From Myxococcales bacterium (GTDB lineage: Bacteria; Myxococcota_A; UBA9042): a stretch of 64,000 nt of DNA. A program made the position numbers and the translations under genes. Location of the stretch: contig SHZF01000002.1 of NCBI GenBank assembly GCA_009692425.1, positions 1 to 64,000 on the forward strand, in the 5' to 3' direction. Below the pieces are notes generated by a model, which had not been told where the DNA came from, did not search any database, and saw nothing but the letters and a program-made list of their open reading frames with translations. Of this stretch, positions 33,869 to 45,866 are shown piece after piece (the first letter of the stretch is position 1; the number at the start of each line of letters is the position of its first letter).

Positions 33869-34300
33869 ATGCCGAACCGTCGTGCATTCGACCACATCGG
33901 TAACTTCAACTTCAAGATCGAGATCGAAGGCGTGACCACCGGCGCCTTCCGCAATGTCGAGGGCCTCGACTCCGAGACGGAGATCGTCGAGTACCAGGAC
34001 GGCGACGACCTCATCCTGCGCAAGCGGCCGGGCCGCACGAAGTACTCGAACGTCACGCTCAAGCGCGGCTACATCAACAACACCGAGCTCTGGGAATGGC
34101 GCAAGGCCGTCATCGAGGGCAAGGTCCAGCGCAAGTCGGGTTCGGTCATCCTCTGCGCCGACGACGGCTCGGAGATCATGCGCTACAACTTCTTCGAAGG
34201 TTGGCCCACCAAGTGGAAGGGCTTCACCCTCGATGGCAAGGGCACCGACGTCAACGTCGAAGAGATGGAGCTCGCGGTCGAGAAGATCGAGCGCGGCTAG
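33869..34300 (+). CDS. gp19-type phage tail tube / contractile injection tube protein
   Basis: A 143-residue member of the T4-like gp19 tube family (PF06841 type), which also contains the inner tube subunits of extracellular contractile injection systems. Family features are FDHIGNFNFKIEIEGVTTGAFRNVEGLDSETEIVEYQDGD near the N-terminus (seen as short successive motifs), the basic strand RKRPGRTKYSNVTLKRG, ELWEWRKAVIEGK and the C-terminal VNVEEMELAVEKIER. ATG 33869 has AGGAG at seven bases. There are no sheath, baseplate, spike or ATPase genes in the window, so this is an orphan. Whether it assembles into a tube or serves a remote cluster cannot be told. Confidence 0.92.
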   Translation: MPNRRAFDHIGNFNFKIEIEGVTTGAFRNVEGLDSETEIVEYQDGDDLILRKRPGRTKYSNVTLKRGYINNTELWEWRKAVIEGKVQRKSGSVILCADDGSEIMRYNFFEGWPTKWKGFTLDGKGTDVNVEEMELAVEKIERG

Positions 34301-40927: not shown

Positions 40928-43198
40928 TCAGGGCCGTCGCTGGATGCGGATTCGCACCGCCTTGCTCGCAGGCGTTCGGCTGCGCTCTGCGCGGTGCTCG
41001 AGAGGCACCAGCACATTCGCCTCGGGAAAATAGGCGGCCGCATTGCGGCGCGGGATCGCATAGGGGACCACCGTGAAGTCGGGCGCGACCCGCGCGCCGT
41101 CGCCGTCTACGCCGACCAGATCGACCTGCATGCCTTGGGTCAGTCCGGCTTCGACGATGTCTTCCGGAGCCAACAGCACGACGCGCCGGCCGTTCGCGAT
41201 GCCCCGGTAGCGGTCGTCCAGACCGTAGAGGGTCGTGTTGTACTGATCGTGGCTGCGGATCGTCATCAGCAGCCATTCGTCGGGCCCGAGTTCCGCGCGG
41301 CGCAGCGGCGACACCAAGAAACGGGCGCGCCCCGTGTCGGTGCGAAAATCGCGCTCGCGGGCGGCATTCGGCAGCACGAAGGACCCCTCGGCCTCCAGCT
41401 TCCGCTCGTAGCCGTCAAACCCGGGCACCACGTCGGCGATGTGCGCCCGGATGCGGCGGTAGTCGTCGGCCAGCGCGCCCCACGGCACCCGCGGCCCGCC
41501 ACCCGGGTGCCCGGCGAACAGCGCCGTGCCGAGGTCCGCGACGATGCGCGGCTCGCTCCGCAGGTGGGGCGAGGCCGGCTCCAGGTGCCCGCGCGACCGG
41601 CTGACCACGCCCATCGAATTCTCGACCGTCACGAATTGAGGGCCGGCGGGCTGCACGTCGCGTTCCGTGCGGCCGAGGCAGGGCAAGATCAGCGCCTCGC
41701 CACCAGTAACGAGGTGCGAGCGGTTGAGCTTCGTCGAGACCTGCGCGGTCAGGGCACAGCGCTGCAGCGCCCGTGCGGTGCGCTCGGTGTCGGGCGCCGC
41801 CGACAGGAAGTTGCCGCCGAGCGCGAAGAACACGCCGACGTCGCCGCGCTCCATCGCCTCGATCGTGCCGACGACATCCAGGCCCTCGTGCCGCGGCGGC
41901 GCGAAGCCGAACACTTCGCCCAGCCGATCCAGCCAGGCCGGCGGCCGCTCGCAGATGCCCATCGTGCGGTCGCCCTGCACGTTGCTGTGGCCACGCACCG
42001 GACAGACCCCGGCGCCGGGCCGGCCGATGTTGCCGCGCAGCAGCAGGAAGTTGACGACTTCTTGAATCGTTTCGACGGCATGGATGTGCTGCGTCAGTCC
42101 CATCGCCCACGTGCAGATCGTGCGCTCTGAACGCCGCGCGATTTCGGCCATCCGTTCGACGGTGAGGCGATCGACGCCCGCCTCGGCCAACAGCACGTCC
42201 CACGGCAGCGCGAGCGTCGCAGCGCGCCAGGCCTCGAATCCGCTCGTGTGGTCGTCGACGAACGCGGCGTCGAGCACCGTGCCCGGGCGCGCGGCTTCGT
42301 GCTCGAGCAGGCTTTTGTTCACGGCCTTCCACAGCGCCGCGTCGCCGCCGATGCGAACCGGCACGAACAGGTCGGCGATGCGCGTGCCGCGGCCGGGCCA
42401 CTCCCACGGCTCCTGCGGGTGCGCAAAGTGGTCCAGCCCTGCCTCGCGCAGCGGATTGACGCTCACGATGCGACAGCCACGCCGCGCGGCGGCCTGCAAC
42501 GTCGTCAGCATGCGCGGGTGGTTCGTGCCGGGATTCTGGCCGATGACGAAGATCGCGTCGGCCGCGTCGAAGTCTTCGAGTTGAACGGTGCCCTTGCCGA
42601 CGCCCAGCGACTCGATCAACGCGAAACCGCTGGACTCATGGCACAGGTTCGAGCAGTCCGGCAGGTTGTTGGTGCCGAACGCGCGCACGAAAAGCTGGTA
42701 CAGGAATGCCGCCTCGTTGCTCGTGCGCCCCGAGGTGTAGAACGCGGCGGCGTTGGGGCAACGCAACCCTCGCAGGTGGTGGGCGAGGCGGGCGAATGCG
42801 GCGTCCCACGCCAGCGGCTCGTAGTGGGCGGCACCCACGGGCTTCCACATCGGCTCGGTCAGGCGACCTTGCTGCGACAGCCAGAAATCGTCGCGGGCGG
42901 CGAGGTCGGCCACGCTGTGGCGCGCAAAAAACGCGCGGTCGATGCGCCGCTCCGTCGCTTCCTCGGCGACGGCCTTGGCGCCGTTCTCGCAGAACTCGAA
43001 GGCCGAGCGGTGCTCCGGTTCCGGCCACGCACAGCCGGGGCAGTCGAAGCCGTCGGGCTGGTTCATGCGCAGCAGCGTCCGCGTCGCCCGCACGGGACCC
43101 ATTTGTGCGAGGACATGGCGGGCCGTCGCAGCCAGCGCGCCAAGGCCGCCGGCGCCGTTCGGCGGTTCCTGGAGGTCGAGGTCGTCCGGTTCGTTCAT
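40928..43198 (-). CDS. FdhF/YdeP-type molybdopterin oxidoreductase
   Basis: A 756-residue member of the molybdopterin oxidoreductase superfamily in the YdeP branch. Evidence: N-terminal DGFDCPGCAWPEPEH (cysteines replacing the usual 4Fe-4S set), YTSGRTSNEAAFLYQ, NNLPDCSNLCHESSG, VIGQNPGTNHPRM, GVCPVRGHSNVQGDRTMG, and in the dinucleotide-binding C-terminal part RSHDQYNTTLYGLDDRYRG. Cytoplasmic, without a Tat signal. Relatives are linked to acid resistance or formate-like chemistry, but no substrate is proven. It follows, through a 17-bp repeat array, the MobA-FdhD fusion needed to finish its cofactor. ATG 43198. Confidence 0.92.
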   Translation of the reverse strand: MNEPDDLDLQEPPNGAGGLGALAATARHVLAQMGPVRATRTLLRMNQPDGFDCPGCAWPEPEHRSAFEFCENGAKAVAEEATERRIDRAFFARHSVADLAARDDFWLSQQGRLTEPMWKPVGAAHYEPLAWDAAFARLAHHLRGLRCPNAAAFYTSGRTSNEAAFLYQLFVRAFGTNNLPDCSNLCHESSGFALIESLGVGKGTVQLEDFDAADAIFVIGQNPGTNHPRMLTTLQAAARRGCRIVSVNPLREAGLDHFAHPQEPWEWPGRGTRIADLFVPVRIGGDAALWKAVNKSLLEHEAARPGTVLDAAFVDDHTSGFEAWRAATLALPWDVLLAEAGVDRLTVERMAEIARRSERTICTWAMGLTQHIHAVETIQEVVNFLLLRGNIGRPGAGVCPVRGHSNVQGDRTMGICERPPAWLDRLGEVFGFAPPRHEGLDVVGTIEAMERGDVGVFFALGGNFLSAAPDTERTARALQRCALTAQVSTKLNRSHLVTGGEALILPCLGRTERDVQPAGPQFVTVENSMGVVSRSRGHLEPASPHLRSEPRIVADLGTALFAGHPGGGPRVPWGALADDYRRIRAHIADVVPGFDGYERKLEAEGSFVLPNAARERDFRTDTGRARFLVSPLRRAELGPDEWLLMTIRSHDQYNTTLYGLDDRYRGIANGRRVVLLAPEDIVEAGLTQGMQVDLVGVDGDGARVAPDFTVVPYAIPRRNAAAYFPEANVLVPLEHRAERSRTPASKAVRIRIQRRP

Positions 43199-43243
43199 GC
43201 GGCTTTGCCGTCGCGTGGCCTGCGAAGTCTCGAGGCCTGTGCA

Positions 43244-43345
43244 GTGTCTTGGCCCACGCAGTGTCGTAGACCACGCAGTGTCGTAGACCACGCAGTGTCG
43301 TAGACCACGAAGCGTCGTGGCCCACCAAGTGTCGTCGTCCGCGGA
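43244..43345 (-). repeat. 17-bp tandem repeat, six copies, between fdhD and the oxidoreductase gene
   Basis: Copies start at 43244, 43261, 43278, 43295, 43312 and 43329. The centre two are identical (GTGTCGTAGACCACGCA) and the outer ones diverged. It fills almost the whole gap between the two genes. There are no spacers and no recognisable hairpin unit. Confidence 0.9.
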
Positions 43346-43353
43346 GTTTTGCG

Positions 43354-44793
43354 CTACGTCACGTCGGCGATGCGCTCGCTTCCCGCGTACACCGAAAACC
43401 CGCCGCCCCGCGCGAACGCCAGCAGCGTCAGGCCTGCCGTCGTGGCCAGTTCGACCGCCAGCGACGACGGTGCCCCGACCGCGACGACGATGGGGATGCG
43501 GGCGGCGAGCGCCTTTTGCACGATCTCGAAGCCGGCCCGGCCGCTCGTCAGCAGGACGCACCCGTGTGCGGGGAAGCGACCTTGCCGGGCCGCGCACCCC
43601 ACCACCTTGTCGATCGCGTTGTGGCGCCCGATGTCCTCGCGCACCGCGATCAGGTTGCCGTCCGCGCCGAACAGGGCCGCGGCATGGACGCCGCCGGTCG
43701 CATCGAACGCGCGCTGGTGGGCGCGCATCTGCGCCAGCATGCCGCCCACCCGGGCGGGGTCGAGCCTGACGGCGTCCTCCAACCGGCGCAGATCGACGCT
43801 GGCTTCGACGGCCTGCCGCGACGCCTTGCCGCACACCCCGCACGCTCCCGACGCCGGCAGCACGCGCGCCGTTGCCGCCATGCGCGGGACCACACCGTCG
43901 ACCAACCTGACCGATACGACGCCGTCCGCAACGACCTGGACGGACTCGATGTCTGCCGGCCCCAGCACGACCCGTTCGCCCAGCACGAGCCCGCGGGCCA
44001 GATCGGCGTCGTCGCCGGGCGTGCGCATCGTGACGGTGAGCGGCGCCGACTCCTCCAGCCGACCGCCGCGCCACACCACATGGACTTCGAGCGGCGCCTC
44101 TACGGCTACGCTGTCGGTCGCGTGTTCCAGCGGCGCGCGCTGGCCAGGTGTGGACGGCACCGGCTGGCGCCCCACCGCGACCTGCTGCAGCGCCGCGGCC
44201 TCGGCTGCCAGGCGCGCCAGGCACGCGGTCGCCGCGGGGAGGTCCGCAGGTGTCGTCACACGCACCGCAGTGTCCCAGTCCAACGGCAGCGGCAGCGCCA
44301 CCGCGTCGCACGCTGCGAGCAGGCGATGTAGTGCCCCCGTCCCATCGGCCAGCGCCTGATCCACGGCACCGAGGGCATCAGTGTGCCACAGCGATGGCAG
44401 CGGCTCCCAGCGCTCGCCACGAAACGCCACCGCGCGGGCACCGGGGACGCGCGCCGTAGCCAGTACCTCCAACCAAGGGGCGCGCAGGCCGACGACGTCG
44501 CACGGCGCGAGCACGATCCAGCCCGCACCGACGTCGATGAGCGCGGCGCGCAGGCCCCCGATTGGACCACTGGCCGGCACGCCATCGAGAATCCGCCGCA
44601 GCCCGAGCCCGTCGAGTGCCGCAGCGCCGGCCCCGACAAGGGTCGCTCTGCCCGCATCTGCAAGCGCGTCGACCACACGGAGCGCCAGCGGCTTGCCCTC
44701 CACTGGCTCGATCGCCTTGGGCCGACCGAAACGCTCGCTGCGGCCACCGACCAGCACGTACAAGGGCAACGGCGCAGCGCGGTTCGGGGCCAC
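43354..44793 (-). CDS. fdhD: MobA-FdhD fusion: molybdenum cofactor guanylyltransferase plus sulfurtransferase
   Basis: A 479-residue two-domain protein. Residues about 10-200 are MobA-like (nucleotide-binding LVGGRSERFGRPKA, then GPIGGLRAAL and the metal-site APCDVVGL), which attaches GMP to molybdopterin. Residues about 230-479 are FdhD: the paired cysteines CGVCGK (318-321) that pass sulfur to the cofactor, DIGRHNAIDK (387-396), LLTSGRAGFEIVQKA and VAVGAPSSLAVELA. Both parts keep their signatures and the frame is unbroken. The start is GTG 44793, eight bases after the SprT-like gene. It is upstream of the YdeP-type enzyme, whose cofactor it would complete. Confidence 0.93.
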   Translation of the reverse strand: MAPNRAAPLPLYVLVGGRSERFGRPKAIEPVEGKPLALRVVDALADAGRATLVGAGAAALDGLGLRRILDGVPASGPIGGLRAALIDVGAGWIVLAPCDVVGLRAPWLEVLATARVPGARAVAFRGERWEPLPSLWHTDALGAVDQALADGTGALHRLLAACDAVALPLPLDWDTAVRVTTPADLPAATACLARLAAEAAALQQVAVGRQPVPSTPGQRAPLEHATDSVAVEAPLEVHVVWRGGRLEESAPLTVTMRTPGDDADLARGLVLGERVVLGPADIESVQVVADGVVSVRLVDGVVPRMAATARVLPASGACGVCGKASRQAVEASVDLRRLEDAVRLDPARVGGMLAQMRAHQRAFDATGGVHAAALFGADGNLIAVREDIGRHNAIDKVVGCAARQGRFPAHGCVLLTSGRAGFEIVQKALAARIPIVVAVGAPSSLAVELATTAGLTLLAFARGGGFSVYAGSERIADVT

Positions 44794-44801
44794 CGGACGG
44801 C

Positions 44802-45866
44802 TCAGTGGCCCAGCAGCAGGCCGCTGCTGGAACTGGCATGGACCCCACGGTGCAGGTTCAGCGCCCGCCCGGCCTGTTGGCCCGCCGCGTGTACCTCGCC
44901 ATGCCGCACGCCGCCGCCGCCGATCTGCTTGAGTTGGGGATAACGCGCGCGGAGGAAGCTGTCGAGCGCCGGGTCGCCGACCCACACGAGACCCTGGCCC
45001 GCATGGCTGCGCCGCTCCTCGGCAAGGCGTTCGCGAAACCCGCTCAGCACACCGGCGACGTATTCGCGGCGCAGGCTGCGGCGGTCCTGCCCGAGCAAAC
45101 GCGGCAGCGTGCGCACCGCCCCACGAAACAGGGTCGCCACCGACGCGTGCAGCCAGTCGTGTACATAGTGCGCGAGTTCAAGGTTCGTCGCGCTGCCGAT
45201 CAGTTCCAACTGCCGCTCGTTGCGGTCGCGCCGCGCATTGTAGGCCAGCGCCCATACGGTCTCGACGAAGAAGTACTCGCCGACGATGGCAGCCACGAGC
45301 TTCCAGTCCAACGGCAGCGACGCCGCGGTGGCACCGACCCGCTTCCAACCGTAGCCGCGCCCGTCCACGTGGCCGGTCAATTCGAGGTTGTACTCCAGCA
45401 GCAGCCGGTTTGCCGCCGCCATCGCCTGCTGCGCCTCGTGCACGTTGGGGCTTTCGGCGAGTGCCATCAGTTTGCGCACGCGCTGCAGGATGCGGTCAGC
45501 CTCGCCGTTCGGCTCGCCTCCGAGCGATCCGGTCGCCGTCGCTACGACGCCCACCTTGCGGCACGCCTCGGCAAACGTCGGTCCATGCGGCGTCTCGTCG
45601 CGTGCGCCCAGGACTTCGTGGGCATACTGGTGCGCGATCTCGTGGCGGAGCGTCTCGAGCACGTCGCTCCACGGCGCATTCCAGATGTGGGCCTCGGCGA
45701 TGCCGATTAGCCGGCCCGTGCGCTCCCAGCGCCCGAGCCGGCGCGAGCCTTGCACGTCGATGACGAAGGCGGGCGGCCGCAGGGCACCGCCCAACCGGAT
45801 GTCGTTGATGAGGTGCCACGCGGCGCGCAGTTGGGTCAGCCAGGCGGTGTGGAATTCGGCGCGCAT
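44802..45866 (-). CDS. SprT-like metalloprotease domain with DUF2786 domain
   Basis: 354 residues. The N-terminal domain is SprT-like, with the zinc motif HEIAH in LRHEIAHQYAHEVLG and a later AEACRKVG. From about residue 130 comes a DUF2786 domain (ADRILQRVRKLMALAESPNVHEAQQAMAAANRLL), then about 150 residues of helical sequence with charged segments. SprT-type proteases cut DNA-protein crosslinks in eukaryotes (Spartan); the bacterial role is not defined. GGAG precedes ATG 45866. It may be co-transcribed with the MobA-FdhD fusion; the link to molybdenum is by position only. Confidence 0.86.
   Translation of the reverse strand: MRAEFHTAWLTQLRAAWHLINDIRLGGALRPPAFVIDVQGSRRLGRWERTGRLIGIAEAHIWNAPWSDVLETLRHEIAHQYAHEVLGARDETPHGPTFAEACRKVGVVATATGSLGGEPNGEADRILQRVRKLMALAESPNVHEAQQAMAAANRLLLEYNLELTGHVDGRGYGWKRVGATAASLPLDWKLVAAIVGEYFFVETVWALAYNARRDRNERQLELIGSATNLELAHYVHDWLHASVATLFRGAVRTLPRLLGQDRRSLRREYVAGVLSGFRERLAEERRSHAGQGLVWVGDPALDSFLRARYPQLKQIGGGGVRHGEVHAAGQQAGRALNLHRGVHASSSSGLLLGH

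Follow-up and report, generated by a model that had tools for sequence, protein, structure and literature searches.

The window, a stretch of 64,000 nucleotides from a Myxococcales bacterium (contig SHZF01000002.1), carries at 43354-44793 on the minus strand a gene encoding a single chain of 479 amino acids. This protein joins a MobA-like GTP:Mo-molybdopterin guanylyltransferase domain (residues ~10-200; 44194-44766, minus strand) to an FdhD sulfurtransferase domain (residues 227-479; 43357-44115, minus strand) via a linker (residues 206-226; 44116-44178, minus strand). Read from the sequence, the frame extends over 607 aa from stop to stop, and neither a stop nor a frame change separates the two halves within 43354-44793, as expected from a preliminary description of the locus as one polypeptide. 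The start codon is uncertain, as the GTG at 44793 lies 8 nt past the stop of an upstream SprT-like/DUF2786/DUF7168 gene (44802-45866, minus strand; context only) and later TTG or GTG codons are also possible. Located 155 bp downstream is a gene (40928-43198, minus strand) for a 756-aa Mo-bisPGD oxidoreductase of the FdhF/YdeP family, which scored 878 bits against the TIGR01701 cut-off of 582 and has a Cys-His pair (CHESSG, C186) at the expected metal-ligand position. Positions 43241-43335, in the gap that separates the fusion stop from the start of ydeP, contain 5.6 copies of a tandem 17-bp unit (GCAGTGTCGTAGACCAC). Elsewhere in the window, a small protein encoded at 33869-34300 (MPNRRAFDHIGNFNFKIEIEGV) resembles, by eye, the tube protein of contractile tails, which hints at an injection-type cluster.

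Pfam assigned residues 13-161 of the fusion to NTP_transf_3 (PF12804; 6e-24) and residues 250-475 to FdhD-NarQ (PF02634; 4e-60); both matches were above cut-off in the window protein, and both domains were found in 15/15 aligned fusions. When searched against solved structures, the N-terminal half matched MobA entries only, and the family profile matched E. coli MobA (1e5k) over its whole length (2e-28). An AlphaFold model of residues 1-205 folded alone had a mean pLDDT of 85.6 (this half was unmodelled in the full-length model, where its alignment rows were misaligned). The top eight Foldseek hits of this model in the PDB were all MobA, including E. coli 1e5k with a TM score of 0.77. The two proteins have in common the fold, the GGxxxRxGxxK signature, and the GP and Asp of the nucleotide/metal site, but they are only 22% identical in the structural alignment, differ by a few active-site substitutions, and the fusion half is not free-standing. 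The signature reads GGRSERFGRPK at residues 16-26 (44716-44748, minus strand), and G16, G17, R21, K26, D70, G76, P77 and the D99 position were invariant in the 15 aligned fusions. The earlier statement that both halves keep their key residues holds for GGxSxRFGxxK, D70, GP76-77 and D99 of the MobA half, among them the catalytic Asp, and for CGVCG 318-322 of the FdhD half, but not for two positions at which alignments place P25 for D24 and T180 for N182 of E. coli MobA; the extra Gly22 is absent from the window protein as well. The Gly-Gly pair of the signature helps to select GTP over CTP, and its retention as in MobA is suggestive, though no more, of GTP specificity. The fusion scored 60 bits against the TIGR02665 equivalog, below the cut-off of 151.85; since no MobA match among 53 relatives reached this cut-off, the equivalog is uninformative in this phylum, and we describe the half as MobA-like by homology and fold.

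The FdhD half exceeded the cut-offs of both PF02634 (204 bits against 27.2) and TIGR00129 (147.5 against 140.9), and a sequence search matched it to the solved FdhD structures 4pde (4.8e-25) and 2pw9. The Cys-x-x-Cys loop, putatively used in sulfur transfer, is present as CGVCG at 318-322, with C318 and C321 (43831-43842, minus strand) aligning with GCGVCG of E. coli FdhD (4pde). Together with G319, G322, E386-D387, G389-R390, N392 and D395-K396, both cysteines were invariant in the 15 aligned fusions. The fusion and 4pde share the whole domain, the CxxC loop and motifs of the EDxGRHNAxDK and SGRxxFExxQK type; E. coli FdhD differs in having no N-terminal MobA domain. In the full-length model, pLDDT was mostly > 90 across the FdhD half and < 50 at residues 206-224, and the ~20-residue linker is thus probably disordered. 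These matches uphold the original assignment of the halves to MobA and FdhD. The domain reading is correct; each half is ordinary by itself, and the architecture is a fresh variant on known protein families, akin to other Moco-gene fusions.

FdhD was found in 17 family members besides the window genome in a screen of 53 relatives, and domain scans of the FdhD loci revealed the MobA-FdhD order in 14 of the 21 other family genomes (G001, G005, G007, G009, G010, G011, G013, G014, G015, G016, G017, G019, G021 and G020, in which a contig end cuts the gene). Single-chain PF12804+PF02634 proteins, for which a search had been proposed, thus occur in the family, and a plasmid search added the Qipengyuania protein described below. 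In G003 (L124), mobA and fdhD are separate genes in the order of the fusion; they overlap at an ATGA that a GGAG ribosome site precedes, and represent a natural unfused state. The two genes are apart in G006, contig ends truncate the FdhD loci of G008 and G012, and no FdhD was seen in G002, G004 or G018. No internal start behind a Shine-Dalgarno-like sequence was present in the window linker, and none was conserved across the family.

To assess selection, NG86 dN/dS was calculated for the six closest pairs and was 0.17-0.31 for MobA, 0.18-0.29 for FdhD and about 0.5-1.3 for the linker (residues 191-226). Across nine pairs, the MobA values ranged from 0.15 to 0.44, the 0.44 coming from one more distant pair; such pairs are near saturation, so their ratios are rough. 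Purifying selection acts on both halves and not on the linker. The architecture is shared by 15 species of the family, and dN/dS of each half is well below 1; it is thus not the result of chance, a frameshift or a chimeric assembly. A chance open frame in high-GC DNA was also ruled out, as 15 family members have both domains, homologous and in frame, and none of 68 other long-frame FdhD loci (40 from the phylum, 15 from Acidobacteriota and 13 from Gemmatimonadota) had MobA within that frame. The same architecture in independent species and the lack of a conserved internal start confirm that 43354-44793 is a genuine single-chain fusion.

In the window genome (G000), the only FdhD and the only TIGR02665 match (at 1e-5) are both the fusion. 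On the proposed check for separate mobA and fdhD, neither a separate fdhD nor a separate MobA-type gene was found in this assembly, which is about 96% complete, so that a missed gene is possible. A separate mobA among the other PF12804 matches was rejected: seven of the eight were examined by sequence or family scan and resemble GlmU, sugar-nucleotide transferases or, in one case, an NTP transferase linked to XdhC (the weakest, on contig 63 and below cut-off, was left out). MoeA is present, and the genome encodes two Mo-bisPGD enzymes, the downstream FdhF/YdeP protein and a 713-aa FDH/DMSO-reductase-like protein on contig 43.

Our survey beyond the family covered samples of the rest of the phylum, of Acidobacteriota and of Gemmatimonadota, and plasmids. 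FdhD occurred in 169 of 286 genomes in an even sample of the phylum, and among the matches listed, none of 40 long-frame FdhD loci outside the family was fused, while one had mobA just upstream. In Acidobacteriota (FdhD in 79/198 genomes) and Gemmatimonadota (121/150), 0 of the 15 and 0 of the 13 long-frame loci examined, respectively, were fused. In most of the Gemmatimonadota loci L225-L237, a separate mobA follows closely after fdhD on the same strand, the reverse of the fusion order. The plasmid search yielded one more fusion, in the alphaproteobacterium Qipengyuania citrea (WP_301643175.1, 451 aa, annotated only as "FdhD"). It has both Pfam domains, ordered as in the window protein, and its gene is flanked by FdhF/YdeP and MoeA genes. 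This alphaproteobacterial protein differs from the window protein in that they are 33% identical and its FdhD half lies far off in the tree; it probably arose by an independent fusion. On Sphingomonas parapaucimobilis plasmid NZ_CP155750, FdhF/YdeP, MobA and FdhD are encoded by three consecutive same-strand genes, which places the same three functions side by side as in the window but as three separate proteins. Within this survey, then, the MobA-FdhD fusion is uncommon and the mobA-fdhD neighbourhood frequent.

We found no report of a MobA-FdhD fusion in the open-access literature searched, though an earlier mention may exist; a match to 'mobA-fdhD' proved to be a gene order in Gottschalkia and not a fusion. 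Known Moco-gene fusions include MobA-MobB (NF011056, NF011059), MoaC-MobA (NF011070) and MoeA-MobB, the last mentioned in PMC13197769. They likewise join MobA or a different late Moco enzyme to a second cofactor-assembly protein, but in no case are MobA and the client-specific sulfurtransferase FdhD the partners.

The MobA tree placed 12 family fusions and the unfused G003 protein in one supported group (95/90), with the two fusions of genus g9 elsewhere. A single origin of all 14 family fusions was rejected on FdhD (AU p 0.008), but a single clade of all 14 was not rejected on MobA (AU p 0.176). The 12 main fusions as one clade were not rejected on either half (FdhD, with unfused G003, p 0.58; MobA, alone, p 0.55). 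Deep nodes were weakly supported in the two trees, and in the free tree the position of the window FdhD half was uncertain. Taken together, the trees point to two or more origins within the family in addition to the alphaproteobacterial one. They are best read as a main event, or operon lineage, with further separate events in g9 and in Qipengyuania. The separate genes of G003 may be the primitive state or the product of a fission.

The preliminary description had placed the fusion next to its probable target. This is borne out in the window and in G001, which has the same fusion-ydeP pair with a YdeP protein 65% identical to that of the window, but it does not extend to the family: ydeP adjoins the fusion in only 2 of 15 members, and in the other fusion genomes it is not nearby and FDH-like genes lie elsewhere. 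Except for G006, all FdhD-bearing family members had an FDH/YdeP-type match, and G002, which has no FdhD, had none. The FDH-like enzyme is of the Cys type in G005 and also in the unfused G003. In P. putida, fdhD is co-transcribed with an FdhF/YdeP gene, and deletion tests link that family to formate oxidation (PMC10308882). Since ydeP is near only some fusions and FDH-type genes are elsewhere in others, the general client would be a formate-dehydrogenase-type enzyme, and the FdhF/YdeP protein next door is the likely local client of the window fusion. YdeP is less characterized than FDH-H. On contig 39 of G011 (L240), a formate dehydrogenase gene has an in-frame TGA at the metal-ligand position (TUHAPT), and in-frame TGA was seen in many family genomes; these organisms thus probably use selenocysteine.

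The best explanation as a whole, with a probability of roughly 0.8, is that the fusion is a bifunctional enzyme of late-stage Mo (or W) cofactor maturation. It builds on the single chain, its conservation, the selection and the lack of other copies, all observed here, and on the activities expected from what is known of the two families. The N-terminal MobA half would attach GMP from GTP to Mo/W-molybdopterin to form bis-molybdopterin guanine dinucleotide (bis-MGD), and the flexibly tethered FdhD half would bind it. FdhD would then put a terminal sulfur, supplied by a cysteine desulfurase via the CxxC loop, on the metal and load the cofactor into formate-dehydrogenase-type enzymes, most likely FdhF/YdeP in the window and canonical Cys/Sec FDHs in relatives. 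FdhD forms a dimer whose two GDP sites lie on one face; a pair of tethered MobA domains per bis-MGD site thus seems geometrically natural, and a fusion dimer would set two MobA domains beside one such site. Studies of the separate proteins showed that MobA makes bis-MGD and that FdhD, a bis-PGD-binding sulfurtransferase dimer (PMC10609526), binds, sulfurates and delivers it (PMC10609526, PMC13197769).

A physical hand-over between the MobA and FdhD halves is hypothetical, and the identity of the client putative. Channelling, which the preliminary description took the fusion to imply, is no more than possible: a tether that fixes stoichiometry accounts for the sequence data equally well, and the disordered linker would also suit mere tethering or co-expression. 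Tentatively, and with the odds somewhat against it, we propose that MobA and FdhD fused repeatedly because new bis-MGD passes directly from one to the other, two MobA domains and an FdhD dimer forming a self-contained factory that would make, sulfurate and deliver bis-MGD for formate-dehydrogenase-type enzymes alone. Nearly an even chance goes to the alternative that both halves are active with no channelling, which departs from the bifunctional reading in the hand-over step only. The fusion would then fix 1:1 co-expression of neighbour genes after loss of a stop between coupled frames, and the cofactor would diffuse or be relayed as in other bacteria. Consistent with this, separate mobA and fdhD are neighbours in many lineages (G003, S. 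parapaucimobilis, family f9 of the class and most Gemmatimonadota loci examined), and the linker is unconstrained and disordered; however, the repeated origin in the same order and the above-background two-hybrid signal of M. extorquens FdhD with MobA (PMC13197769) both suggest, without being decisive, that proximity is useful.

It is unlikely that the N-terminal half has ceased to be a guanylyltransferase and is instead a degenerate docking or nucleotide-binding domain, or a CTP-using, MocA-like one, with bis-MGD coming from another protein such as the NTP transferase on contig 57. P25, T180 and the low equivalog score would fit such a loss, but the eight invariant positions, the purifying selection and the MobA-type Gly-Gly argue against it, and MobA came first among solved-structure matches with MocA-related entries far behind. 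In addition, the contig 57 protein adjoins XdhC and had no TIGR02665 match at 1e-5; MocA genes are often beside XdhC (PMC2997495). An artefact, whether a faulty join in sequencing or assembly or an internal start that yields two products from the one frame, is highly improbable given 14 other family genomes with the fusion, one in another phylum and the missing internal starts noted above, even though the genome is high in GC with long chance-open frames and the G003 genes are separate.

In M. extorquens, only a relay of contacts has been reported for the passage of bis-MGD, a labile cofactor, from MobA to the client-specific chaperone (PMC13197769). A natural covalent MobA-FdhD unit that apparently arose more than once provides independent evidence that both act in sequence, and it would allow a hand-over to be probed, and perhaps captured in a structure, within one protein. 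The fusion may also be useful for producing formate dehydrogenases in heterologous hosts. As it is often the only MobA-type gene in the family, the question arises of where the other bis-MGD enzymes obtain their cofactor. Directly after the XdhC gene on contig 57 of the window genome (L003, 25-2079), one frame combines DUF309 with a second NTP transferase domain that is MobA-like; this is possibly another fusion.
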